From Chloroflexia bacterium SDU3-3 (lineage in GTDB: Bacteria; Chloroflexota; Chloroflexia; Chloroflexales; Roseiflexaceae): a stretch of 64,000 nucleotides of DNA. The notes beneath the pieces were generated by a model. That model was not told where the DNA came from, did no database searches, and saw only the letters and a list, made by a program, of their open reading frames with translations. The stretch covers positions 257,807-321,806 of the forward strand of contig WBOU01000006.1 of the NCBI GenBank assembly GCA_009268125.1, read 5' to 3'. Each line of letters begins with the position of its first letter. The first letter of the stretch is position 1. This document shows positions 9,328 through 35,293 of the stretch, piece by piece. The position numbers were made by a program, and so were the translations under genes.

Positions 9328-10194
9328 CTAACCAAAGCGACCGGAGATATACTCCTCGGTGCGCTTGTCTTTGGGGGTATTAAACAGCGTGGCGGTGGGC
9401 GCGATCTCCACCACCTGGCCCGCGCGGGTCTCGGGGTCCATCAGCATGAACACCGTCTCGTCGGAGACGCGGGCGGCCTGCTGCATGTTATGGGTCACGA
9501 TAATGATGGTGAAATCCTTGCGCAGGTCCACCATCAGCTCCTCGATCTTCAGCGTGGCGATCGGGTCGAGCGCCGAGCACGGCTCGTCCATCAGCACCAC
9601 CTCGGGGCGGGGCGCGATGGTGCGGGCGATGCACAGGCGCTGGGCCTGGCCACCCGAAAGCCCCAGCGCCGAGCTGCGCAGCCGGTCCTTCACATCATCC
9701 CACAGCGCCGCCGCCCGCAGCGACTCCTCCACCCGCTGCTCGATAGCCTTGCGGTCGCGCCAACCGCTGACGCGCAGGCCATAGGCCACGTTGTCGAAGA
9801 TCGACTTGGCGAAGGGGTTGGGGCGCTGGAAGACCATGCCGATCCGCCGCCGCAGCATCACCGGGTCGGCATCCTCGGCGTAGATGTTCTGGTCATCCAG
9901 CAGGATCTGGCCAGTGCCGCGCGCCCCCGGCGTCTCGTCGTGCATGCGGTTGATCGCGCGCAGCAGCGTGGTCTTGCCGCAGCCCGACGGCCCGATGAAG
10001 GCCGTGATGGCCCGCTCGCGCATGCTCAGATTGATATTGCGCAGCGCCTGGAACGCGCCATAGTAGAACTGGAAGTTGACCGCAGCGACCTTGGTCTTCT
10101 CGCTCAGCGGCAGCTCTGGCTCGGCGGCCCGCGTGAACACGCTCAGATCGGCCTTCTGCCGCACCATCGCCCCAGTAGAGAACGCATCGCTCAT
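9328..10194 (-). CDS. pstB: Phosphate ABC transporter ATP-binding protein PstB (second copy)
   Basis: A 288-residue ABC ATPase with Walker [10 protein letters not shown], signature LSGGQAQRL and Walker [14 protein letters not shown], the last being typical of PstB. It powers high-affinity phosphate import through PstA-PstC. Compared with its tandem neighbour it has a ~25-residue longer N-terminus and GGQAQRL instead of GGQQQRM in the signature. The ATG used here follows a TAGGAG site; a longer in-frame start would overlap the upstream gene. It is the last gene of the operon and is followed by a strong terminator. A second PstB next to the first is seen in other bacteria, but the division of labour is not evident. 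Confidence 0.93.
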
Positions 10195-10204
10195 GGTATC
10201 GCTC

Positions 10205-10996
10205 CTAGCCGATACGGCCACTAATATACGCCTCGGTGCGCGGGTCGCGCGGCGCAGAAAAGATCTGGCCGGTCTGGCCCTCTTCCACCAAAAAGCCGAT
10301 CGGCTTCTCGGCCTCGCGGTCGACCATGAACACGCAGGTGTGGTCGGCCACGCGGGCGGCCTGCTGCATGTTGTGGGTCACGATCACCACCGTGAAGCGC
10401 TTCTTCAGCTCGTGCAGCAGCTCCTCGATCTTGAAAGTGGCGATCGGGTCAAGCGCCGAGCACGGCTCATCCATCAGGATGATGTCTGGCTCCAGCGCCA
10501 CGGCGCGGGCGATGCACATGCGCTGCTGCTGGCCGCCCGAGAGCGCCAGGCCCGAGTGGTGCAGCTTGTCCTTCACCTCATCCCACAGCGCCGCCGCCTG
10601 CAGCGAGATCTCGACGCGCTCGTCGATCTCGCGCTTGGGCACGCCGTTGAGCCTCAGGCCCACCGCCACATTGTCGTAGATCGACATCATCTTGATCGGC
10701 ACCGGCTGCTGAAAGACCATACCGATCTTGCGGCGCACCGCCTGCGGCTCGACGCCCTGGGCGTAGATATCCTCGCCGCCCAGCAGGATCTTGCCCTCGA
10801 CCCGCGCCTTGGGCACCATCTCGTGCATGCGGTTGATGCAGCGCAGCACGGTGGTCTTGCCGCAGCCCGACGGCCCGATGAACGCCGTGACGCTGCGGGG
10901 CGCGATGGTGGTATCCACCGGCTTGAGCGCCTGCTTCGCGCCGTAGAAGGGCGTCAGGTTGCGCAGCTCTATCTGATTCGCACCAGTTGTGGTCAT
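10205..10996 (-). CDS. pstB: Phosphate ABC transporter ATP-binding protein PstB (first copy)
   Basis: A 263-residue ABC ATPase of normal PstB length. Walker [11 protein letters not shown]-loop region, signature LSGGQQQRM, Walker [14 protein letters not shown] and the switch histidine in [10 protein letters not shown] are all intact. It starts seven bases after pstA ends and is followed ten bases later by a second pstB, so the five pst genes form one transcription unit. Sequence similarity between the two copies is obvious through the catalytic core, pointing to an old tandem duplication. Confidence 0.95.
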
Positions 10997-11003
10997 AGCA
11001 TCC

Positions 11004-11879
11004 CTACTTCAGTCGGCTACGTGTGGCAAAGCGAACCAGCAGATTCGTAACCAGCACAATCGTGGTCAGCACCAGCGCCGTACCCCAGGCCAGGTCGTTC
11101 TCGGCTGGGTAGGGCGACTGCGTGTACTTATAGGTCAGCAGCGGCAGCGCCGCCATCGGGGCCGACATATTAAACGAGACGTTGTTGTTGCCCAGGATGG
11201 TCAGCAGCAGCGGGGCGGTCTCGCCCATGGCGCGGGCCACGGCCAGCAGCACGCCGGTGGCGATGCCGCCCGCCGCCGCCGGCAGCACTACGGTGAAGGT
11301 GGTCTGCCACTTGGGCGTGCCCAGGGCCATCGCGCCCTCGCGCACCGAGTAGGGCACCAGCCGCAGGATCTCCTCGGTGGTGCGGGTGATCAGCGGCACC
11401 ATCAGGATGGCCAGCGCGATGCTGCCCGCCCAGCCCGAGAACTGCTTGTAGCGCACCACGATCAGCGCGTAGGCCACCACGCCCACCACGATCGAGGGGG
11501 CCGCGCTCAGCACATCGGTGCAGAAGCGCACGACCGTGGAGAACAGGTTCGACTTGTACTCGGCCAGGTAGACGCCCGCCAGGATGCCCACCGGCAGCGC
11601 GATCAGCGTGGCCCACATCACGATCAGCAGCGAGCCAGCGATGCCGTTGAGCACGCCGCCCTGCGCCTGCACCGCACCGCTCAGGCTGAGGCCGGGGGCC
11701 TTGTAGGATTTGGTGAAGAAGTCGATATTCAGCGACGAGACGCCCTTGACCAGCACAAAGCCAAGGATGAGCACCAGCGGGATGAGCGCCAGCAGCGTGG
11801 CGACCACCGCGCAGCCGCGCATCGCCCGATCCACCGCCTTGCGTCGCCCGATGTTCGGCGCATTGACCACAATACTCAT
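11004..11879 (-). CDS. pstA: Phosphate ABC transporter permease PstA
   Basis: A 291-residue integral membrane protein with about six hydrophobic segments and a PstA/CysT-type EAA-like loop ([14 protein letters not shown]). It forms the phosphate channel with PstC. The ATG overlaps the stop codon of pstC in an ATGA, which indicates translational coupling, and GGGGAG lies upstream. A longer start 13 codons earlier is in frame but would lie within pstC. Confidence 0.95.
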
Positions 11880-12850
11880 GCCCGCGCACTCCCCACCGGC
11901 CCACGGCCAGCGCGCCACACGATAAAGCGCGCCAGACCATTGAGCAGCAGCGTAATTACAAACAGCACCAGGGCTATCAGAATAAGCGTCGACTCGTGCA
12001 GCTCATCGTTCGCGTTCGACAGCTCGCTGGCCACCAGCGAGGCCGAGGTGATGCTGGCCTGGAAGATCGACGGCTCGATCCGGTCCTTCAGGCTGCCGAT
12101 GATCATCAGCGCCGCCATCGTCTCGCCCAGGGCGCGGCCAAGGCCCAGCATCATGCCGCCGATGATGCCCGCCTGGGCATAGGGCAGCACCGCGTGGCGG
12201 ATGGTCTCCCACTGGGTTGCGCCCACGGCCAGCATGGCCTCGCGCTGGTTGGATGGCACCACCGCCAGCACATCGCGGGTGATCGAGGCGATGGTGGGCA
12301 GGATCATGATCGCCAGCACCACGCCCGCCGCCGCCAGGCTGCGCGCCGAGACCGGCCCGCCCAGGAAGGGCAGCCACTGGCCGATCGACCCGGCCACCGG
12401 GTTGGCCACCGAGGTCTGGAAGAACGGGATGAGCACGAACACGCCCCACATCCCATACACCACGCTGGGGATGGCCGCCAGCAGCTCGACCAGGAACGAG
12501 AGCGAGGTGCGCAGCCGCAGCGGGCATAGCTCGGAGAGGAACACGCCGATCATCACGCCCAGCGGCCCGGCGATCACCAGCGCGATCAGCGACGAGATCA
12601 GCGTGCCGTAGATCGCGGGCAGCGCGCCAAAGTGCCCGGTCACAGGGTTCCAGCCCTGCTGGAACAGGAACGAGATGCCGAATTTATCGCGGGCCTCGGT
12701 CGAGTTCACCCAGGTCACAACACCAATAACGCCGACCAGCGCCACCACCAGCAGCGCAAAGGCCAGCGTTATGAATGCAAAGAGCGAGTCGCCATGGCGC
12801 GTGCGCTGTTGCAAAGACGCCCAGGCGCTCAGGTTCTTTGCTTGGGCCAT
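11876..12850 (-). CDS. pstC: Phosphate ABC transporter permease PstC
   Basis: A 324-residue membrane permease with an N-terminal cytoplasmic stretch, a first transmembrane segment near residues 25-48 and five further segments. The EAA-type loop reads SNQREAMLAVGATQWET, as in PstC. AGGAAG precedes the ATG. It lies 151 bp downstream of pstS, separated by a hairpin that could reduce read-through from the highly needed binding protein to the permease genes. Confidence 0.95.
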   Translation of the reverse strand: MAQAKNLSAWASLQQRTRHGDSLFAFITLAFALLVVALVGVIGVVTWVNSTEARDKFGISFLFQQGWNPVTGHFGALPAIYGTLISSLIALVIAGPLGVMIGVFLSELCPLRLRTSLSFLVELLAAIPSVVYGMWGVFVLIPFFQTSVANPVAGSIGQWLPFLGGPVSARSLAAAGVVLAIMILPTIASITRDVLAVVPSNQREAMLAVGATQWETIRHAVLPYAQAGIIGGMMLGLGRALGETMAALMIIGSLKDRIEPSIFQASITSASLVASELSNANDELHESTLILIALVLFVITLLLNGLARFIVWRAGRGPVGSARA

Positions 12851-13001: not shown

Positions 13002-14288
13002 CTACTTGGCCAGCTCGAAGGCGGCCTTGCCACCCACCTGAACCTGGGTCAGCTTCTCGATCGCCTTGGCCTGCACCGAGGCCGGCAGCGGGGCGAAGCC
13101 CAGATCCTTCGCGCCGGCAGCGCCGTCGGTCAGGCTCCAGTACAGGAAGTCGGTCAGGGCCTGGGCCTTGGCCTCGTCGGTCATCTCGGCGTTCACCAGC
13201 ACCCAGGTGTAGCCCGAGATCGGGTAGGCGGAGTCCGACTCCGGCGTGCCCGCGGGCGGGTTCACAATGTTCACGCGCAGGTCGTCCGGGGTCTCGGGCA
13301 GGAAGGCGGCGGCGGCAGCCGAGACGCTATCCAGGGTCGGCTCGATGTAGGTGCCGGCGGCGTTCTTGATCTTCGGGGCCGGGAGCTTGTTGCCCAGCGC
13401 GTAGATCAGCTCGACGTAGCCGATCGCGCCCTCGGTCTGCTGCACAGCCTGGGCCACGCCGGGGTTCTTCTCGCCGCCCACGCCCACCGGCCACTGCACG
13501 GTGTCGCCAGCGCCCACGGCGCTCTTCCAGTCGGCGCTCACGCTGCTCAGGTAGTTGGTGAAGATCGAGGTCGTGCCCGAGCCATCCGAGCGGTGCACCA
13601 CGGTGATGGCCGTCTCGGGCAGGGTCACGCCGGGGTTGTCGGCGGCGATGGCGGCGTCGTTCCACTTGGTGATCTTGCCAAGGAAGATGTTGGCCAGCGT
13701 CTCGCCCGAGAACTGCAGGCCCTCAACGCCGGGCAGGTTGTAAGGGGTCACGACCGCGCCCAGCACGGTGGGGATGCTCAGCACCGTCTTGCCGTACTTG
13801 GTCAGCTCGTCATCCGAGGCGAACTTGTCGGTGCCGCCGAAGTCGGTCACGGCGTTGAAGAAGTCCTTGCGGCCCTGGCCCGAGCCGACGCTCTGGTAGT
13901 TGATCGTCACGCTGGGGGCCACGGTCTTGTACTGCTCGATCCACTGCTGGTAGATCGGGTCGGGGAAGCTCGCGCCCGAGCCGGTCAGGGTCGCCGTCAC
14001 CGCGCGGGGCGTGATCGACGGGAAGCTGACGGCGGCGGCGGTGGCCGAAGCCTCAGCGGTGGCAGCTGCCGTGGCGGCCTCGGTGGCGGCGGGGGCCTCG
14101 GTGGCAGCCTCGGTAGCGGCGGGGGCCTCGGTGGCGGCGGGGGCCTCGGTGGCAGCCGGAGCGGCGGTCGCAGCCGCAGGAGCATTTGTGGGGGTCGTCG
14201 ACGCGGTGGTGCCGCAGGCGGCGATCACCGGGATGATCAGGGCCAGGCCAAGCGCGCGCTTCGCCGAGGTCGGGAGAATCGAGAACAT
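13002..14288 (-). CDS. pstS: Phosphate-binding lipoprotein PstS
   Basis: A 428-residue extracytoplasmic phosphate receptor. The signal peptide ends in a lipobox with Cys25 (PVIAAC), so it should be lipid-anchored. Residues about 30-85 are a low-complexity Ala/Thr/Glu/Pro linker with repeated AATEAP units, which probably lifts the receptor off the membrane. The mature domain (GSGASFPDPIYQQW onward) has the PstS features SVGSGQGRKDF and VHRSDGSGTTSIF that bind phosphate. The start is the ATG behind GAGGAGG rather than one eight codons upstream. It is the first gene of the operon and lies behind a PHO-box-like element. Confidence 0.96.
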   Translation of the reverse strand: MFSILPTSAKRALGLALIIPVIAACGTTASTTPTNAPAAATAAPAATEAPAATEAPAATEAATEAPAATEAATAAATAEASATAAAVSFPSITPRAVTATLTGSGASFPDPIYQQWIEQYKTVAPSVTINYQSVGSGQGRKDFFNAVTDFGGTDKFASDDELTKYGKTVLSIPTVLGAVVTPYNLPGVEGLQFSGETLANIFLGKITKWNDAAIAADNPGVTLPETAITVVHRSDGSGTTSIFTNYLSSVSADWKSAVGAGDTVQWPVGVGGEKNPGVAQAVQQTEGAIGYVELIYALGNKLPAPKIKNAAGTYIEPTLDSVSAAAAAFLPETPDDLRVNIVNPPAGTPESDSAYPISGYTWVLVNAEMTDEAKAQALTDFLYWSLTDGAAGAKDLGFAPLPASVQAKAIEKLTQVQVGGKAAFELAK

Positions 14289-14433
14289 GCGAACTATTCC
14301 TCCTCGTAGCATCCTATTCCAACCAGCGGCACGTAGGTAGAAATCCTCGCGCTTTTGCGCTGCGAGGTGTAGCTTCAGGGCTAGACTTGCTCCTAGCTAC
14401 GTACCTTTGGATGCTGGAAGAGTAGCACCCGTA

Positions 14434-15824: not shown

Positions 15825-16973
15825 CTACTGAATAGGTGCGACGCGCAGATCCAGGCGGATACTGTCATCGGGGCCATCAAACACGACGATGGCTGGGGCG
15901 GAGTTCTTCGGGATCTTGAAGACCAGCACACCGCTGGCCTTAGTACCGTTGTAGAAGTTACCACCGTCGAATCGATTATCGAGTGAGTAGAGTGCAGTCT
16001 CGACTGTATGAGTACCACCATCAAGGTCGATCAGATCGAAGGATGCTGGATTTGCAAAGAAGCTATCACGGTAACGGCTCTGCCAGCCGGTATTGGCCAC
16101 TTCGACTGCAAACACCACATACTTCTCATCTTTCGTCGCCTTGTAGCGGTTGATACTGTCCGTGTACTTAAATCCTGTGGCTGAAACCTGCACACCGTTA
16201 ACATTGACCTGCCAGAGGCCAGCAGGCATCTTCTTGCGGTAGCTGTCGAGCACCTCTTGGGGCTGGATGGGCGAGGGGGCCGCCGTGGGGGCTGCTGGTG
16301 CGGCGGTGGGCTGCGGCGCAGCAGCGGCCTCGCGGATCTCGTTGCCCAGCAGGCCCAACTGCACATTGTATGGCGCAGCGTTCTCCGGGTGCAGCTCGAA
16401 GCGGGCGCGCTCAAACCACTGCACCTGGCGCTGCTGGCCATCAGCCATGGTCTCGGTCATCAGATCCGAAAGGGGCAGCCCGAACAGGGCTAGGTTCTCG
16501 GCCTCGGTCTTGCCGCCCTTGCCATCCAGCTCGATACCGCTGGCGCGCCATGCCTTCAGAATATCGCCGCACACGTTCTGTTGGGTTTCGGCGAAGTAGC
16601 GGCAGCCAGCCTGGGATTCGCTGTTGGAGAAGGTAAACGGGTCGCGCCCCTGCTGGGCCAGACGGTCGGCCCCGAGCCGACCGAGCAGCACATCGTAGGG
16701 GCGGCCATTCTCAGGGTGGAGTTCTAGACGGTTGCGCTGGAACCACTGCACTTGGTAGGGCTTGCCCTCGATCTGCTCTTCGTGCTGATCCGTCACAGGG
16801 TAGCCAAACACGGGCAAACCGCCATTCTGCTGCCAGTATTCGCGAATACGACCACTGATGCAGAAGCCGGTCTCACTAAAGCATAACGATTCGCTCTGAG
16901 CATACGCGGTAAGCGGGATAAGGAAAGATATGACCGTCAGGAAGGTGATGATGGGGGTGCAGAGACGACGCAT
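15825..16973 (-). CDS. Secreted WQQ-repeat protein with C-terminal DUF4352-like domain
   Basis: A 382-residue exported protein. A signal peptide (1-26, ending AYAQ) is followed by two LGFP-like repeats (about 28-100 and 110-205). The first repeat reads WQQNGGLPVFGYPVT, then VQWFQRNRLELHPEN, then VLLGRLG, and the second has the same elements in diverged form. After a Pro/Ala linker the last ~125 residues (VNGVQVSATGFKYTDS to the end) form a beta-sandwich of the DUF4352 type found in bacterial surface lipoproteins. Such repeats are thought to bind the envelope. The start is the ATG behind GGAGT; two upstream in-frame ATGs would add a charged stretch before the signal. Function unknown. Confidence 0.75.
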   Translation of the reverse strand: MRRLCTPIITFLTVISFLIPLTAYAQSESLCFSETGFCISGRIREYWQQNGGLPVFGYPVTDQHEEQIEGKPYQVQWFQRNRLELHPENGRPYDVLLGRLGADRLAQQGRDPFTFSNSESQAGCRYFAETQQNVCGDILKAWRASGIELDGKGGKTEAENLALFGLPLSDLMTETMADGQQRQVQWFERARFELHPENAAPYNVQLGLLGNEIREAAAAPQPTAAPAAPTAAPSPIQPQEVLDSYRKKMPAGLWQVNVNGVQVSATGFKYTDSINRYKATKDEKYVVFAVEVANTGWQSRYRDSFFANPASFDLIDLDGGTHTVETALYSLDNRFDGGNFYNGTKASGVLVFKIPKNSAPAIVVFDGPDDSIRLDLRVAPIQ

Positions 16974-17275
16974 GGAATGGTACTCCATATGCCAACGATG
17001 CCGCCCAGGGAGCCGAACCGCACGGCTTTGTGGCATCGATCTTCCCAATAGTTAAATGCAGGTAAATGTTAGGATAAAACGCTAAAAACTATCGAAAAAT
17101 ACTCTACGATCAAATATCGAAAACATCCGTTCGGTACGATCTGGGAGAAAGAGGCTCCAATTGCATTATAGCAGACACGAATCGCTGGGTGAAGTGGGGT
17201 AATGGTAGATAACTGGTGAAGAAACGAGATATGCAGCACCAGCTACCAGCGCTGGTGTGCGGCTGCAAGCATGGC
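16974..17275. other. Intergenic region; promoter region of the WQQ-repeat gene
   Basis: No gene is evident. 17040-17130 is AT-rich compared with the neighbours and probably contains the minus-strand promoter, but I cannot pick a -35/-10 pair with confidence. Confidence 0.4.
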
Positions 17276-17321: not shown

Positions 17322-18065
17322 CTAGGGCGCGTGCGCCGTCTGGGTCAGCGCGGTGTCCAGCACCGACTGGAAGGCGTCCATATCGGCCTTCAGGTCGGTG
17401 AGGCGCTGGGCCACCTGGTTGGTGGCGGTGTCGGCGCTGACCGCGTCGGATGTGCGCAGCCGCACCGTCTCGGCCTGTACGTTCTCCAGGTTGGCAGCGA
17501 TGTTCTGCAGCTGGGCGTTGATCCGCTCGATGTAGGTCTCCAGGTCGCGGGCGTTGCTCTGGCGGTCGGTCAGGGCCTGGCGCGTCTCGCCCAGCTGGTC
17601 GCGGGTGTAGGGGTCCTGGGTCGAGCGCAGGCGGATGTCGAGCGCCTCGATCTGCTTCTGGATGGCGTTCTGGTTCACGCCCACCAGATACTGCTCGATC
17701 TCCTGGCCCTTGCCAGCCAGGGTGTAGGCCTCGCGCAGCAGCTCGCGGGCCTGGTCATCGATGCGGGCCAGCAGCGCGCGCAGCGACCCGGAGGACTGGC
17801 CGATGCTGCGCGAGATGGCCTGGGTGGTGCGCTCGATCGCCTCGATCTGGGCGCGGAAGGTTGGGCTGCTCAGCTGCGGGCGCGTCACCTTGGGCGGCGG
17901 GGCAAGCTGCAGCTGCGGGTCGCGGGCGGCCAGCGCCACCATGGCGGCGTAGGCCAGCAGCCCCAGCGGCAGCAGCCACCACGTCACCACCACGCCGCCG
18001 ACCAGCGCACACACCCCAACCACGATGGCAAGCGGCTGCAGCGCAGCGCGTCCGAATGCGTTCAT
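17322..18065 (-). CDS. Membrane protein with two N-terminal helices and a long coiled coil
   Basis: A 247-residue protein of unknown function. Residues about 9-48 contain two closely spaced hydrophobic segments (LAIVVGVCALVGGVVVTWW and PLGLLAYAAMVAL). The rest, from about 70 to 235, is rich in Gln, Glu, Arg and Ala with heptad patterns and should form a coiled coil on one side of the membrane. The layout recalls XpaC-like or phage-shock-type envelope proteins, but no family motif is recognised. It lies 84 bp after the substrate-binding/VWA gene on the same strand, behind GAGGAG, so it is probably part of that transcript. Confidence 0.6.
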   Translation of the reverse strand: MNAFGRAALQPLAIVVGVCALVGGVVVTWWLLPLGLLAYAAMVALAARDPQLQLAPPPKVTRPQLSSPTFRAQIEAIERTTQAISRSIGQSSGSLRALLARIDDQARELLREAYTLAGKGQEIEQYLVGVNQNAIQKQIEALDIRLRSTQDPYTRDQLGETRQALTDRQSNARDLETYIERINAQLQNIAANLENVQAETVRLRTSDAVSADTATNQVAQRLTDLKADMDAFQSVLDTALTQTAHAP

Positions 18066-18149
18066 AGGCTCCTCGAAGCTGTTGCAGGTGGAGAAAAGCG
18101 ATAGCGCGGGCGGCTTGCGAGGCCGTGGGCAAGCCGCCCGCCAGCGATC

Positions 18150-19796
18150 TTAGAAGTAGCGGCTCAGATTGTCAAAGATCTGGCCGATGTTGCCGGTGTC
18201 GCCCTCGACCAAGATGGTGTGCGAGAAGTCGACGATGTCCTGCAGCACCTGCTTGTCAGCATCCGCGCCGTAGGCCACCGGGAAGATGCTGATGCCGGTC
18301 TCCTCATAGCTGCCCTTGATCTGCTCGAAGCTGATCGAGCTGGCCGTATCGGCCCCATCCGAGAGCAGCACGATCGCCTGGATGCGGTCCTCGCTGGTCT
18401 TGGGCAGGCCATCGAGCACCTGCTTGGCCGAATCCAGGCCGTTGTAAATCGCCGTCTTGCCGGTGGCGCGCATCTGCTGGATGGCCTCGCTCAGCGCGAT
18501 GCGGTTCTCGGAGAGCGGCGCGGGCGGCACCGCCACCGTGGCCGTGGAGTCGAACGTCACCAGCGCGATGCGGTCCTCGGGCAGGATGCGGGCCAGGAAG
18601 GTCTCAAGCCCAGCCTTGACCTGCTCGATCTTGTCGCCCTCCATCGAGCCGGATGTATCCACCAGCAGCACGATGTCGGCGCGCTTGCGGTTCTGCTGCC
18701 ACACGTTCTTGGCCGCCACGATCACATCGGCAGATGGCACCGGCAGCACGTTCTGCACGCCCTGGGGCTGCACGCCGTAGCGCTCGCTCACCGGGTCGGC
18801 CAGGGGCACATTGGCGCTGGCAGGGCGGAAGCCGTAGCTCAGCGCGGCCTTCTGGCTCTCGTCGTTCATCAGGAAGGTGAAGAAGGTCTCGGCGGCCTGC
18901 TGCTGCTCGGCGCTGGCCTTCGACATCACGATAAACGGGTCGTCGTGCCAGAAGGTGCCCTCCTTGGGGTAGATCGCCACCAGCGGCACGGCGGGGGCCT
19001 TGTTCTTGTTGAAGTCGATCAGCGTGATCTCCTCCATCGGGAAGGCCGAAATATAGCTGGTGCCAAACTTCTGCATGTTGTCGCTGAACACCAGCGTGTT
19101 GTAGCCGTAGTGCTTGATGCCCTTGCCCAGATCGCGGATGAACTGCTGGCTCTCGGCCTTCTGCACGTCGGCCACGGTCAGGTCGCGCTGCTTGCCCACG
19201 GCAGCGTAGTACTCGGCCAGCAGCGTGGAGAGCGCGGTGGTGCTGATCTCGGGGTCGGTGTGGCCCCAGGTGAACTTGCCCCACTCGGGGTGGCCGTAGG
19301 CCCCCCAGCCCTGCGGGTCGTTGATCAGCGCCAGCATGTCGCTCCAGCCAATCGGTTTGTTCGGCCAGCCCAGCGCCTCAGCCATCGGCTTCCACATGGA
19401 GATAACCACCGGCGTGAGCACCAGCGGGCGGCTGGAGACGGCGATGTTGGCGTTGCCACTCTCCTGCTTCAGCACCTCAAGCCAGGTCGATGATGACGGG
19501 CTCCACACCGTTACATCAAGCTGTCCGTTTTTCAGCTCGGTGCGCGCCGCGCCGCTCGATTTATTCAAGCCCTCGACAAAAATCGGGCTACCGTTCAGCT
19601 TCGCACCACTGGCATTAAACGTCGCGATCCGCTCCTTCAGCCACTCTTCTTTCTCGGGGCTATAGGCGATGGTGATCTTCACCGCGTTCGACGGTGCCTC
19701 GCCAGGGGTCTGCGCGCCCCCGCCAGCCTGCTCGCCGCAGCCCACCAGCTGCGCGCCCACCAGCAGCGCGCAGAGCAGCCCAACCATTCGTCGCAT
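18150..19796 (-). CDS. Substrate-binding protein/VWA fusion lipoprotein
   Basis: A 548-residue lipoprotein (lipobox AQLVGC, Cys20). Residues about 38-350 form a periplasmic-binding-protein-type domain related to bacterial extracellular solute-binding proteins. Residues about 372-548 are a von Willebrand A domain with an intact metal site D380-T-S382-G-S384 and the later Thr and Asp ligands (TGKTAIYNG, LLSDGAD). The protein therefore pairs a ligand-binding lobe with a metal-dependent adhesion or assembly lobe outside the membrane. It is downstream of a paralogous stand-alone binding protein and upstream of a coiled-coil membrane protein. No ABC permease or ATPase is nearby, so transport is unlikely to be its main role. 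AAAGGAGTG precedes the ATG. Confidence 0.85.
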   Translation of the reverse strand: MRRMVGLLCALLVGAQLVGCGEQAGGGAQTPGEAPSNAVKITIAYSPEKEEWLKERIATFNASGAKLNGSPIFVEGLNKSSGAARTELKNGQLDVTVWSPSSSTWLEVLKQESGNANIAVSSRPLVLTPVVISMWKPMAEALGWPNKPIGWSDMLALINDPQGWGAYGHPEWGKFTWGHTDPEISTTALSTLLAEYYAAVGKQRDLTVADVQKAESQQFIRDLGKGIKHYGYNTLVFSDNMQKFGTSYISAFPMEEITLIDFNKNKAPAVPLVAIYPKEGTFWHDDPFIVMSKASAEQQQAAETFFTFLMNDESQKAALSYGFRPASANVPLADPVSERYGVQPQGVQNVLPVPSADVIVAAKNVWQQNRKRADIVLLVDTSGSMEGDKIEQVKAGLETFLARILPEDRIALVTFDSTATVAVPPAPLSENRIALSEAIQQMRATGKTAIYNGLDSAKQVLDGLPKTSEDRIQAIVLLSDGADTASSISFEQIKGSYEETGISIFPVAYGADADKQVLQDIVDFSHTILVEGDTGNIGQIFDNLSRYF

Positions 19797-19828
19797 CGGT
19801 CACTCCTTTATCTGGCTTGCAGCCTATG

Positions 19829-21028
19829 CTATCTGCCAAACTGCCGGGTCCACGCATCGACCAGCGCCTGCAGCACCTCGGCCTTGGGCAGCTCGGCCTG
19901 CGGGCCAAGGTCGATCTGCACGCCACTGTCCTTCGCACTCACAAAGGGGTTGTCGGCCCCACCCTGGCCGATCGACACGCTGGAGTTGGATGGGCGGAAG
20001 CCGCTGCGCAGCGCCAGCTGCTGCACCAGCTCGCTCAGCAGGTAGCTGCGCAGCGCCCGCGCCGCCTGCTGCTGCTCGGGGGCCACCCACGCCCCCGAGA
20101 GGATGGCGAAGGGGTGATCGCTCAGCAGCGTGGCGGGCAGGTACAAGATCTTCAGCGAGGAGCCGCGGCCCTTGGCCACCGCGCTTTGCTCCAGGGCCAC
20201 ATTCTCGTAGACGGTGGCCATGTCGTACTTGCCAGGGCCGAAGCGCACCATATCGGTCATAAACGCGCCCGTGCTCTCGGCAAAATCAGGCACCGTGCGC
20301 TCTAGGTCGCTCACCCAGGCCTGGCACTCGGCATCCTGCACGTCGGCCAAGGTCAGGCCGCTCACCTTGCCGTGGCAGCCGTAGGAGAGCAGCGCCAGGG
20401 TCTGCATGCCGCTGTTTGAGCTGGCGGGCGAGGTATGGCCAAACTTGATCAGGCCCCAGGCCTCCTTGCCGCCGTGGGCCTTCCAGCCCTTGTCATCGAG
20501 CAGGGCGTCGTGGAAGCCCTGCCAGAAGCCCTGCCTGGGCAGGCCGCTGGGCCAGAGCGCGCTGGCGCGGTCGGCCCAGGCCACCAGCACCAGCGGCGTC
20601 ACCACCAGCGGCTGGGGCGCATCCGCGCCGCCCAGCACCACATCGCCCGCCCTGGCGCGCAGCAGGTCGATCTGGGTCTGGCTGGCCGGGCTGATCGCCG
20701 CCGGGGCCGCGCCCGCGCCCCAGCTCTGCGCGGCCACCCGCTCCACGATCTCGTTCGAGCCGAGGCCCACCAGATTCACCTGGATGGGGCGGCCATCAAC
20801 CGTGGGCGCGGTGGCGGCGAACTGGGCGATAGCAGCCTGGAGCCACTGCTCTTTCTCGGTGCTATACCAGAGCGTCAGCACCACCGGCTCGCGCTTGGGC
20901 TCGATCGGCACACCCGCCAGCCCGCTGCCCAGCGGCGCACCCAGCAGCCGGGCCGCCGTCACCAGCACCGCCACCAGAAGAAATGCCGTACCGATCATTC
21001 GGGAAAGACGCAGCATCATCAACCTCAT
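19829..21028 (-). CDS. Membrane-anchored extracellular substrate-binding-like protein
   Basis: A 399-residue protein with one N-terminal hydrophobic segment (about 12-32) that acts as signal or anchor; it lacks a lipobox. The rest is a binding-protein fold paralogous to the N-terminal half of the next gene: compare VSGLTLADVQDAECQAWVSDLERTV here with LTVADVQKAESQQFIRDLGKGI there, and similar VVLTLWYSTEKEQWL / KITIAYSPEKEEWL starts. The gap to that gene is only 32 bp. No transporter components are adjacent. The first Met and the Mets at codons 4 and 5 are all possible starts; the AGG of codon 2 would serve as ribosome-binding site for the later ones. Confidence 0.75.
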   Translation of the reverse strand: MRLMMLRLSRMIGTAFLLVAVLVTAARLLGAPLGSGLAGVPIEPKREPVVLTLWYSTEKEQWLQAAIAQFAATAPTVDGRPIQVNLVGLGSNEIVERVAAQSWGAGAAPAAISPASQTQIDLLRARAGDVVLGGADAPQPLVVTPLVLVAWADRASALWPSGLPRQGFWQGFHDALLDDKGWKAHGGKEAWGLIKFGHTSPASSNSGMQTLALLSYGCHGKVSGLTLADVQDAECQAWVSDLERTVPDFAESTGAFMTDMVRFGPGKYDMATVYENVALEQSAVAKGRGSSLKILYLPATLLSDHPFAILSGAWVAPEQQQAARALRSYLLSELVQQLALRSGFRPSNSSVSIGQGGADNPFVSAKDSGVQIDLGPQAELPKAEVLQALVDAWTRQFGR

Positions 21029-21124: not shown

Positions 21125-21162
21125 AGAAGAAAAGGCCGAAGAGCGTCCCGCACCCTTCGGCC
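21125..21162 (-). terminator. Intrinsic terminator after the TIG-like envelope protein gene
   Basis: GGCCGAAG pairs with CTTCGGCC around a 13-base loop, and TTTTCTTCTT follows on the minus strand, about 30 bases after the stop codon. Confidence 0.75.
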
Positions 21163-21190: not shown

Positions 21191-22771
21191 CTATGGCGTG
21201 CCATTGAAGGTCATATACAGATCCACCCGGTTGCCGCTGGAGAGGCCACGATAGTGGTAGCCATAGACACCCAGCGCGTTCTGAAGGGTAAACTTCACCG
21301 TGTAGGCGATCCGCCCGCTCTTATTGGCCTGCACATTGCCCATCAGGTAGTACGATCCGTCGGGGGTCGTCACCCACAGCTCGGCCTGCTCGCTGGCGCG
21401 GAACCCGCTGCCGCCCAGGTTGAACTGGGTGCTCTGGCCGCCCTCGGCGGGGCTGACGCTGCCGTTGCGGTTGGCCGGGCGCGGCGTGCCGATCGGCGCG
21501 TAGAAATCGCTGGTCAGCTTAAACAGCGCTGTCACCGCGCGCTTGGTGTTCTTGCCCTGGGCCGTGGCCAGCCACACGCCCTGCAGGTTGGCCTGCGGCT
21601 TCACCACCACGCGCATGCCGCCGCCGCCGTCGCGCTGCACCGCCCCATCGCTCACCGACTCCAGGCCAGCGCCGTTGGGCTTGGTGAGCCACACGCCCAC
21701 CTCCTCGTTGGGGTCGAACCCGGCGGCGCTAAACACAAAGGCGCTGCCCGGCACCGCCGCCAGCGGCGCGATCGAGCCGCGGCCCATGGGCTGCAGCGTG
21801 GTATGCAGCATCTCGCCCAGCTTGTTGGGGTCGCCCACCGCACCGATCACGGTGAAGTAGCCGATGGCAACCCGCCCGCTCTTCTCGCCCCGCGCCGAGA
21901 TCGCCCAGCGCCCGTTGCTAAAGTCGCCGCTGGTGAAGCTCACCTGCGACCCAGTGATCGAGCCTGCGCCGCTGGCGGTGGGCTTGCGCTTGATCGAGCG
22001 CACCTTCATATCCGGCGATGTCAGCCACAGCGTCACCGGCTCGCCCGCCTGGAAGCCCTCGCCCTGGATGGTGAAGACCTGGCCAGGAGCGCCGCTTGCG
22101 GGCACCACCCGCGCGGCGGCGGATGTGCTGCCGTAGCTGTCGCTGCCCGCCCCAGTGGGTAGCGGCACGCCATCCTCATCCAGCGGAGCGCCCGGCTGGG
22201 TGTCGGCGGGCCAGGCCGCCAGCAGCTGCGGCGGCGCGAGCAGGCGGCCCAGCAGCGACAGGCGCACCTCGCTGCCCCACAGCTCGAACTTAGCGCGCTC
22301 GGTCCACTGCACGGTGTGGGTGCGCCCATCGGACTGCACCTCGCCGTACTCGTTGGTGAGCGGCACGCCGAAGATGGCGGTGCCGCCGTACCTCTGCCAG
22401 TAGGCCTTGAACGCGCCGCCCATCGCGCCCGAGGGCTGCTGGATGCCCGTCACCTCTGCGCCAAGGCGGCCAAGATCCACAAAGCCCTGGTTGTTCTGCA
22501 CACGCAGCTCAAAGCGGGCGCGCTCAAAATACTGCACCAGCTTGCCGTCGGCGCGGCGGATATACTCCTCGGTGATCGGCAGACCAAAGATCGCCACACC
22601 GCCCTTGCTCTCCCAGTAGGTGCGAAACACGCCCTTGAGGTAGTGCCCCGTCTGCGAGAAGTAGCGCGCCGGGGTCTGCGCCTGCGCCCGTGTCGGCAGC
22701 GCGCCTATCAAGATGGCAAGGATCAGCACCACCATCGGCGCACGCCGCAAAAGACTATGGCGTCGGTCCAT
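21191..22771 (-). CDS. Secreted protein with two WQQ-type repeats and beta-sandwich domains
   Basis: A 526-residue exported protein. A signal peptide (about 1-32, ending AQAQ) is followed by two LGFP-like repeats (about 35-105 and 110-185), with the signatures YWESKGGVAIFGLPIT / YWQRYGGTAIFGVPLT and VQYFERARFEL / VQWTERAKFEL. After a linker there are about three beta-sandwich modules of ~100 residues, each containing a FxxxGEP/ASEQ-x-WxTxPDG-like core (GEGFQAGEPVTLWLTSPD, AAGFDPNEEVGVWLTKPN, GSGFRASEQAELWVTTPD). The whole looks like an envelope-bound structural or adhesive protein. It shares its N-terminal repeats with the protein encoded at 15825-16973. TAGGAG precedes the ATG; a good promoter lies upstream. 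Confidence 0.75.
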   Translation of the reverse strand: MDRRHSLLRRAPMVVLILAILIGALPTRAQAQTPARYFSQTGHYLKGVFRTYWESKGGVAIFGLPITEEYIRRADGKLVQYFERARFELRVQNNQGFVDLGRLGAEVTGIQQPSGAMGGAFKAYWQRYGGTAIFGVPLTNEYGEVQSDGRTHTVQWTERAKFELWGSEVRLSLLGRLLAPPQLLAAWPADTQPGAPLDEDGVPLPTGAGSDSYGSTSAAARVVPASGAPGQVFTIQGEGFQAGEPVTLWLTSPDMKVRSIKRKPTASGAGSITGSQVSFTSGDFSNGRWAISARGEKSGRVAIGYFTVIGAVGDPNKLGEMLHTTLQPMGRGSIAPLAAVPGSAFVFSAAGFDPNEEVGVWLTKPNGAGLESVSDGAVQRDGGGGMRVVVKPQANLQGVWLATAQGKNTKRAVTALFKLTSDFYAPIGTPRPANRNGSVSPAEGGQSTQFNLGGSGFRASEQAELWVTTPDGSYYLMGNVQANKSGRIAYTVKFTLQNALGVYGYHYRGLSSGNRVDLYMTFNGTP

Positions 22772-33877: not shown

Positions 33878-34018
33878 CCGCCAGCTCATCCCGAATTGTC
33901 GTAATCATAGGGTATCACAATACCTTATCTCGTAGTATTATTCTTGTGAAGAAGGGCACAGCCCACAGGCATCCAACCGCTCGTTCTGGGCACTTGGTAG
34001 AATGTAGGATGTAGGTAT

Positions 34019-35293
34019 ATGGCTCCTGGAATCCGCCTTCAACGCACTCTCAGCCGTACCACCCTAGCTGCCAGCACCGAGCAGCAGCTGCTCTATGTGC
34101 TTGTTGAAGCGACGCCAGAGGGAATCCCCACCCAGGCACCCAAACTGCCGCTGAATCTGTGCCTGCTGATCGACCGCAGCTCATCGATGCGCGGCGAGCG
34201 GCTTCAGCAGGTAAAAGACGCCGCCAACAAAATTGTTGATCAGCTTGCGCAGGATGATTTCTTCTCGCTCGTCACCTTCAACGACCGTGCCGAAGTGGTG
34301 GTCTCCTGCCAGCGCGCCTCGCAGAAAGCCGAGCTGAAGCGCGCGATCAACAGCATCGAGGCCTCGGGCGGCACCGAGATGGCCACGGGTATGGCGGTGG
34401 CACTCCAAGAGATCCAGCGTGCGATGATGTCACGCGGTATCAGCCGCATCATGCTGCTGACCGATGGCCGAACCTATGGCGATGAAGCGCGCTGCGTCGA
34501 GATCGCGCGCCGCGCCCAAGATCGCAGCATCGGCATCACCGCGCTGGGCATCGGGGTCGAGTGGAACGAAGATCTGCTGGAGACCATGACCGCCCGCGAG
34601 AATAGCCGCGCCCAGTACATCCTCTCAGCCAGCGATATCAGCCAGGTATTCAGCGAAGAGCTACATCGGCTGCACTCGATCTTCGCGCAGCGCGTGACGA
34701 TGAGCGCGGCCCTACGCCCAGGCGGCATGCTGCGCGCCGCCGACCGGGTGCGCCCCTTCATCGCGCCGATCACGATCAGCGAGGAAAGCGAGCGCCGCTG
34801 GACCGGCAGCCTGGGCGACTGGCCCGGCTCGGATGCACACAGCATCCTGCTGGAGGTGGTGGTGCCGCCGCTGGAGGTGGGCGACCACGCGCTGCTCAAG
34901 CTGGGCCTACGCTACGACCTGCCCGCCGCCAACGCCCGCGACCAAGTGAGCGAGGATGTGGTGCGCATCAGCATACGCCCCGAGGCCGAGGTGGCCACCG
35001 AGGTTGACCCGCTGGTAAAACACTGGCTGGAGCGCCTGGTAGCCTATCGGCTGCAGTCAAGCGCATGGACCGATCTAGAGGCGGGGCGGATTGAGGAGGC
35101 AACCAAGCGGCTGCAGATGGCAGGCACGCGCCTGTTTGAGGCCGGTGAGCGCGAGCTGGCACGCACCATTCAAGAAGAGGCCACCCGCCTGCTGCGCAGC
35201 GGGGCCGCCAGCGACGAGGGACGAAAACGCATTCGCTTTGGCACTCGCGGCCTGATCGGCAGCCCAACGGAAGAGCAACCCCTAGAACACTGA
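34019..35293 (+). CDS. VWA domain protein of the kinase/phosphatase operon
   Basis: A 424-residue soluble protein without signal peptide. The von Willebrand A domain (about 45-225) has the metal site D52-R-S54-S-S56 and the later TDGRTYGD element. The region after it (about 240-335) forms a beta-rich domain as in other cytoplasmic VWA proteins, and the C-terminal ~80 residues are helical with tetratricopeptide-like spacing. VWA proteins of this layout are often partners of Ser/Thr kinases and FHA proteins. It is 141 bp downstream of the acyltransferase and followed after 27 bp by the FHA gene. Confidence 0.85.
   Translation: MAPGIRLQRTLSRTTLAASTEQQLLYVLVEATPEGIPTQAPKLPLNLCLLIDRSSSMRGERLQQVKDAANKIVDQLAQDDFFSLVTFNDRAEVVVSCQRASQKAELKRAINSIEASGGTEMATGMAVALQEIQRAMMSRGISRIMLLTDGRTYGDEARCVEIARRAQDRSIGITALGIGVEWNEDLLETMTARENSRAQYILSASDISQVFSEELHRLHSIFAQRVTMSAALRPGGMLRAADRVRPFIAPITISEESERRWTGSLGDWPGSDAHSILLEVVVPPLEVGDHALLKLGLRYDLPAANARDQVSEDVVRISIRPEAEVATEVDPLVKHWLERLVAYRLQSSAWTDLEAGRIEEATKRLQMAGTRLFEAGERELARTIQEEATRLLRSGAASDEGRKRIRFGTRGLIGSPTEEQPLEH

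Follow-up and report, generated by a model that had tools for sequence, protein, structure and literature searches.

What does a cell do with two substrate-binding proteins whose transcription unit encodes no transporter? This question is raised by a three-gene locus in a 64,000-nucleotide stretch of Chloroflexia bacterium SDU3-3 (contig WBOU01000006.1, positions 257,807 to 321,806), hereafter called the window. In agreement with an initial annotation of this DNA, open reading frames (ORFs) on the minus strand encode a membrane-anchored protein with a substrate-binding protein (SBP) fold (A, positions 19829 to 21028, 399 amino acids), a putative lipoprotein in which a second SBP domain is fused to a VWA domain (B, 18150 to 19796, 548 amino acids) and a membrane protein with two predicted transmembrane helices and a helical, coiled-coil part (C, 17322 to 18065, 247 amino acids). 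The intergenic gaps within A-B-C are just ~32 and ~84 bp and are therefore compatible with one transcription unit. We report that the trio is an inherited unit and that genes for PspA recur in its neighbourhood, a link missed by the initial annotation and the strongest clue to function. With moderate confidence, we favour the reading that A-B-C is an envelope module which senses a ligand outside the cytoplasm and relays a signal, related by its context to PspA-type stress systems, and not an uptake system.

Conservation of the A-B-C unit

A scan of named genomes, in which gene content was determined by six-frame profile searches, retained 79 loci, each with a relative of B. These loci belong to Chloroflexota (Chloroflexia, Anaerolineae and Thermogemmatispora) and to others labelled Planctomycetota, Verrucomicrobia, Actinobacteria (Svornostia, Patulibacter and Solirubrobacteraceae), Acidobacteria (Granulicella) and further groups, with the proviso that phylum labels of loci from metagenome-assembled genomes may be wrong. 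A, B and C occur together in 32 of the 79 loci (one also with PspA), and eight loci hold A and B with a protein that we call E (four also with PspA). E comes from Acidobacteria/Verrucomicrobia-type loci and is remotely homologous to C (hhalign 92.5, E 5e-7). Other gene contents are A and B only (13 loci), B and C (6) and B with PspA (1). Wherever the profile found C in the named loci (38/38), it lies on the same strand within 1.5 kb of A or B.

The same linkage is found in a sample of 400 Chloroflexota genomes searched for B (E<=1e-25) and C (E<=1e-8). B is present in 64 of them and C in 41, and 40 of the 41 genomes with C fall among the 64 with B (Fisher p 5e-37, from a hand table). C adjoins A and/or B in 36 of its 41 genomes, 34 of these being read by hand from match coordinates (one, G011, at 1.8 kb) and two (G094 and G375) established via a profile. 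In a survey of Acidobacteriota, B matched (E<=1e-60) in one of 80 genomes, the centre genome itself, so that no linkage count can be given for that phylum. The comparison of neighbourhoods proposed in the initial annotation thus finds C beside A or B in all 38 named loci that have it; checked against the outcomes named there as contrary, consistent linkage to ABC permeases in relatives or absence of the other two genes beside the fusion, the reading was not refuted.

Some genomes carry additional copies. The window genome has a second A-B pair, lacking C, on another contig (L040), and a single copy of C (E<=1e-3). In L042 (8114-13245), two adjacent SBP-VWA genes surround C and their VWA halves are near-identical, which suggests a recent duplication or gene conversion. 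In L041, from a genome of the window's family, a Uma2-family gene (PF05685, 10417-11355) stands between C and an additional SBP-VWA gene.

PspA in the neighbourhood of the unit

PspA is an ESCRT-III-like envelope stress protein. It is a same-strand neighbour in 6 of the 79 named loci (L096, L098, L102, L104, L106 and L110), with Pfam confirmation in four (L096, L098, L102 and L110). By arithmetic, with PspA encoded once or twice in a genome of several thousand genes, ~0.1% of loci would have it no more than two genes away by chance, or ~0.1 of 79 loci; the kinship of the loci weakens this comparison. The five remaining genomes of the 41 with C have C directly beside PspA: G152 (L182), G240 (L179), G283 (L183), G304 (L181) and G325 (L188). 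PspA passed the PF04012 cut-off in the four of these that were tested and was recognized in the fifth only by a profile that we built. The PspA-linked C is homologous to the window-family C of Chloroflexia (hhalign probability 98.3, E 1.2e-14).

The arrangement varies between genomes. In four further Chloroflexota genomes, the gene order is PspA-A-B-C (G361 and G184) or B-B-PspA (G103 and G163), with PspA over the Pfam cut-off in each; these are cases and not a frequency, because the stretches had been chosen for holding C or B. Acidobacteria/Verrucomicrobia-type loci are arranged as B-A-(PspA)-E, with an AAA ATPase gene after E in L096, L104 and L106. A gene for an SPFH/Band-7 protein lies upstream of A in L105 (with zinc ribbons) and L120 (without). 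We did not count a PspA candidate in G081, whose score of 24.7 fell short of the Pfam cut-off of 33.9. G304 (L189) and G152 (L190) each have a second, weak C-like gene, with neither PspA nor an SBP as a neighbour in the 10 kb covered.

Fusion to and neighbourhood with kinases

Another set of loci connects the unit to kinases. In Thermogemmatispora-type genomes, A is one protein made of a zinc ribbon, a Ser/Thr kinase and an SBP domain, and B follows; the fusion was recognized with Pfam in L130 and L050 and with a hidden Markov model in L184, L185 and L186. In Chloroflexus- and Oscillochloris-type (Chloroflexaceae) loci, a histidine kinase follows C. We took a census of neighbours around 50 loci that covered up to two flanking genes per side and proteins of up to 900 amino acids. 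Its 97 downstream proteins include HATPase_c (7), HisKA (6) and Response_reg (5) domains. In the window, the two nearest genes on each side of the trio include no kinase gene. In a separate arrangement, B stands alone in the Herpetosiphon-type loci L044, L046 and L054, where its neighbours are a HAMP-PAS-STAS protein and a convergently encoded Ser/Thr kinase (identified with Pfam in L044).

Proteins A and B

A has a hydrophobic N-terminus that serves as its predicted anchor, followed by an SBP domain at ~50-399 that matches PF13531 (E 2.2e-15). The SBP domain of B, at ~37-372, matches PF13416 (E 9.7e-18) and PF13531 (E 1.2e-12), and its VWA domain, at ~370-548, matches PF00092 (E 1.4e-18). Both proteins show the two-lobed domain of type II binding proteins, according to profiles and, for B, to matches of an AlphaFold model (pLDDT 89.6). 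A and B aligned with an hhalign probability of 100, which bears out the view of the initial annotation that their binding domains are paralogous. A lipobox-like motif, LVGC20, was read by eye in B; its Cys is present in 10 of 12 alignment rows and missing in L049 and L052.

In structure searches, the SBP part of B matched binding proteins for sulfate, thiamin, hexose-phosphate, ferric and polyamine ligands with similar scores (Z 25-27), a spread that singles out no ligand class. The VWA part matched the known VWA domains 4fx5 and 8s05. The metal site of the VWA domain had been described as intact, and residues D380, S382, S384, T448 and D480 are indeed invariant in 12/12 aligned relatives. We take these residues to be the metal ion-dependent adhesion site (MIDAS), with its motif D-x-S-x-S plus T and D. 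When 59 A and 102 B sequences were aligned together, residues conserved in both proteins emerged, for example E48/K49, S81, P100, S185, T234, E256 and Y276 in the numbering of B. When placed by secondary structure, the near-invariant residues sit at strand ends and helix starts, positions that line the cleft in the SBP fold.

Protein C

The description of C as a two-helix coiled-coil membrane protein held for its membrane part, with two predicted helices (~11-26 and ~32-48), while the remainder is better described as a helical domain of ~180 residues. Judging by the charged residues that follow the second helix, this domain is more probably cytoplasmic, a prediction from sequence. The model of C (pLDDT 82.6) gave no Foldseek match under E 0.17. 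In the VIA structure comparison, C matched BAR-like and F-BAR proteins and designed bundles with a best Z of 11.5, a value within the range that the tool describes as common for helical bundles, so that no fold is assigned to C. C has no Pfam family over its cut-off, an NCBIfam scan gave no family over cut-off, and scans with PADLOC and PHROGs returned only coiled-coil or VWA noise.

Several candidate identities for C were considered. Weak matches to VirB3, confined to the membrane part and to 3 of 13 members (best E 2e-4), with the C of the window under the cut-off, were set aside. Membership in the PspA/ESCRT-III family was not supported, given that C has no PF04012 match and that hhalign of C against PspA gave 1.6 and 0.35; neither C nor E matches PspA in this comparison, which doubles as a coiled-coil control. 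The Ter and TelA-XpaC systems of membrane stress were also considered for C and E. When 13 C and 7 E proteins were scanned with Pfam, neither the TelA nor the XpaC family came up, and no direct profile comparison was made.

Transporters and other neighbours

The statement in the initial annotation that no ABC permease or ATPase is nearby is wrong as it stands: the strand that carries the trio also has a PstSCAB-type cluster, 3-8 kb downstream in the window. It comprises genes for PstS (13002-14312, minus strand, identified with Pfam) and, as read from the sequence, PstC (11876-12850), PstA (11004-11918) and two consecutive PstB ORFs (10205-10996 and 9328-10221), all on the minus strand. This cluster has its own binding protein, and no equivalent cluster was seen beside the trios of relatives. 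In the neighbour census, the ABC permease domain PF00528 was found in 4 of 93 upstream neighbours, and ABC permeases are not among the 25 commonest families of the 97 downstream proteins. By our reading of the sequence, the four permeases belong to the Chloroflexus-type loci L042 and L043 and are of the sugar type, divergently transcribed and accompanied by their own SBP. The conserved linkage to a permease or ATPase that marks binding proteins of ABC importers was found for neither A nor B. On the strength of this census, uptake by an ABC importer was set aside as the leading interpretation. The proposal of the initial annotation that the binding folds serve in sensing instead of uptake is supported by the kinase-A fusion, the histidine kinases downstream and the few ABC neighbours (4/93).

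Two promoter-like sites and one terminator-like site were predicted, all of them weak, and no argument rests on them. The terminator-like hairpin (21134 to 21162, minus strand) is situated between A and the upstream gene, and one such hairpin was found versus 2.0 expected in shuffles. The proteins that flank the trio (21191-22771 and 15825-17048, both on the minus strand) share similar N-terminal repeat-like modules; the former, upstream of A, has no Pfam family over cut-off, and the latter has DUF4352 and a weak LGFP match. An additional VWA-containing ORF is located at 34001-35290 (plus strand), and several other VWA proteins are encoded in the window genome.

Discussion

Our interpretation is built on computed gene content, domains and conserved linkage, on the neighbourhoods of C with PspA and of A/B with PspA, on the kinase-A fusion and on conserved residues at cleft positions. 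From these we infer how the parts would work together. The SBP domains of A, held by one N-terminal helix, and of B, held by a putative lipid anchor, would bind a small ligand, probably an anion or another polar compound, in their conserved clefts. With its metal site, the VWA domain of B would bind a partner or close a complex of these proteins. The state of this complex would be passed inward to C, whose two membrane helices would carry a mostly cytoplasmic helical domain, and C (or E) would act on a cytoplasmic effector, namely PspA where it is present. Kinases may provide an alternative output in lineages whose A carries a fused Ser/Thr kinase or whose loci have a histidine kinase downstream.

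Several observations weigh against this interpretation. The unit is linked to kinases in some lineages and to PspA in others, and the two links may stand for different uses of it. PspA is not adjacent to the trio in the window genome, where it is encoded on another contig, nor in most loci of Chloroflexota. Of 20 genomes with the module, 14 have a PspA match over cut-off and four, the Anaerolineae L099, L103, L113 and L117, have no PspA match (E<=1e-3); PspA is therefore not an obligatory partner. PspA is present in 206 of the 400 Chloroflexota genomes and, by hand count, in 60/64 with B versus 146/336 without B, a co-occurrence that is confounded by phylogeny. C is not itself a homologue of PspA (hhalign 1.6). 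The trio is not always complete either: in 19 of the 79 loci, some of them truncated by contig ends, neither A nor C accompanies B, and in several genomes (L156-L163) A adjoins C with B located elsewhere or not detected, which makes A-C the tighter pair. Finally, arrangements within one lineage are not independent of each other.

Some of these points would be expected if A and B were an orphan nutrient sensor that binds one nutrient and signals to kinases, the PspA neighbourhood being incidental or lineage-specific and unrelated to stress. The kinase-A fusion, the neighbouring histidine kinases, SBP folds with conserved clefts and the four module genomes that lack PspA all fit such a sensor, and control of a kinase by a binding protein has a precedent in GlnH-GlnX-PknG (PMC9769921, PMC6069109). 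This explanation nevertheless leaves unaddressed that the PspA neighbourhood recurs in varied arrangements and in several phyla, and that C, when detached from A and B, is itself a neighbour of PspA; we regard it as rather unlikely. A role in surface assembly or adhesion, in which the VWA domain of B and the SBP folds would scaffold an extracellular structure (sheath, filament or gliding apparatus) on C as a membrane platform, seems to us less likely still. Metal-site VWA domains often have proteins as binding partners, many hosts are filamentous Chloroflexia, and the linkage of A and C without transporters would suit a scaffold. Yet the genes also occur in loci labelled Acidobacteria, Verrucomicrobia, Actinobacteria and Planctomycetota, and neither the conserved cleft residues nor the kinase fusions would be explained. 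The least probable explanation, which we disfavour strongly, is ordinary uptake, with A and B delivering a solute to an ABC importer encoded elsewhere. It draws on the SBP folds, the Pst-type genes of the window and the sugar-type permeases read upstream of A in L042 and L043, but against it stand the rarity of permeases in the census, the neighbouring transporters that, by sequence reading, carry an SBP of their own, the fusion of A to a kinase in some genomes and the VWA domain of B.

The envelope-sensing module that we favour resembles known systems in part. It shares with PspA/IM30 systems (Ravi et al. 2024, PMC11237479) the PspA neighbours and, in some loci, Band-7 and AAA+ genes. The same work describes operons in which PspA/Snf7-TM and AAA+ occur with ABC genes and with PBPB-OmpA, a protein that binds solutes and peptidoglycan, whereas the trio has two SBP-fold proteins, one of them fused to VWA, and the C/E family, with no ABC genes in the unit. 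The terms vWA, von Willebrand and substrate-binding are absent from its main text, to which our search was confined. In Bacillus subtilis, an SPFH protein links PspA to the membrane (PMC8581546), similar to the SPFH/Band-7 genes beside the trio in L105 and L120, whereas the title and opening lines of that paper's abstract name neither an SBP nor a VWA protein. The GlnH-GlnX-PknG system of Actinobacteria also signals without transport, through an outer binding protein, a transmembrane protein and an inner Ser/Thr kinase (PMC9769921, PMC6069109). By contrast, the SBP is here fused directly to the kinase, in some genomes only, and the second SBP is fused to VWA.

A structure titled as a two-component system protein, 6lkg_A, matches B at Z 25.2 in the VIA comparison. 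AioSR has a role among two-component systems that are triggered by binding proteins. The AioX-AioSR system likewise employs an SBP-fold protein in sensing with a histidine kinase (PMC7533571). Our trio shares no more than the fold: the histidine kinase is confined to Chloroflexaceae-type loci, and none stands beside the trio of the window. A limited search of open-licence literature, with most subscription papers outside its reach, found no description of an SBP-VWA fusion with C.

More tentatively, C and E could be one new membrane-adaptor family that links an outer SBP/VWA receptor to an inner PspA-type, ESCRT-III-like machinery, so that membrane remodelling would come under the control of a ligand, and C could itself be the effector in Anaerolineae without PspA; we hold this extension to be possible but doubtful. 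In our judgement, how PspA-type systems sense envelope stress outside Proteobacteria, Firmicutes and Actinobacteria is largely open. Our analysis provides a hypothesis of function for C and E, for neither of which a curated family was found, and the trio, set beside PspA or fused to a kinase, represents a testable candidate receptor in the cultivated genera Chloroflexus, Herpetosiphon, Thermogemmatispora and Granulicella.

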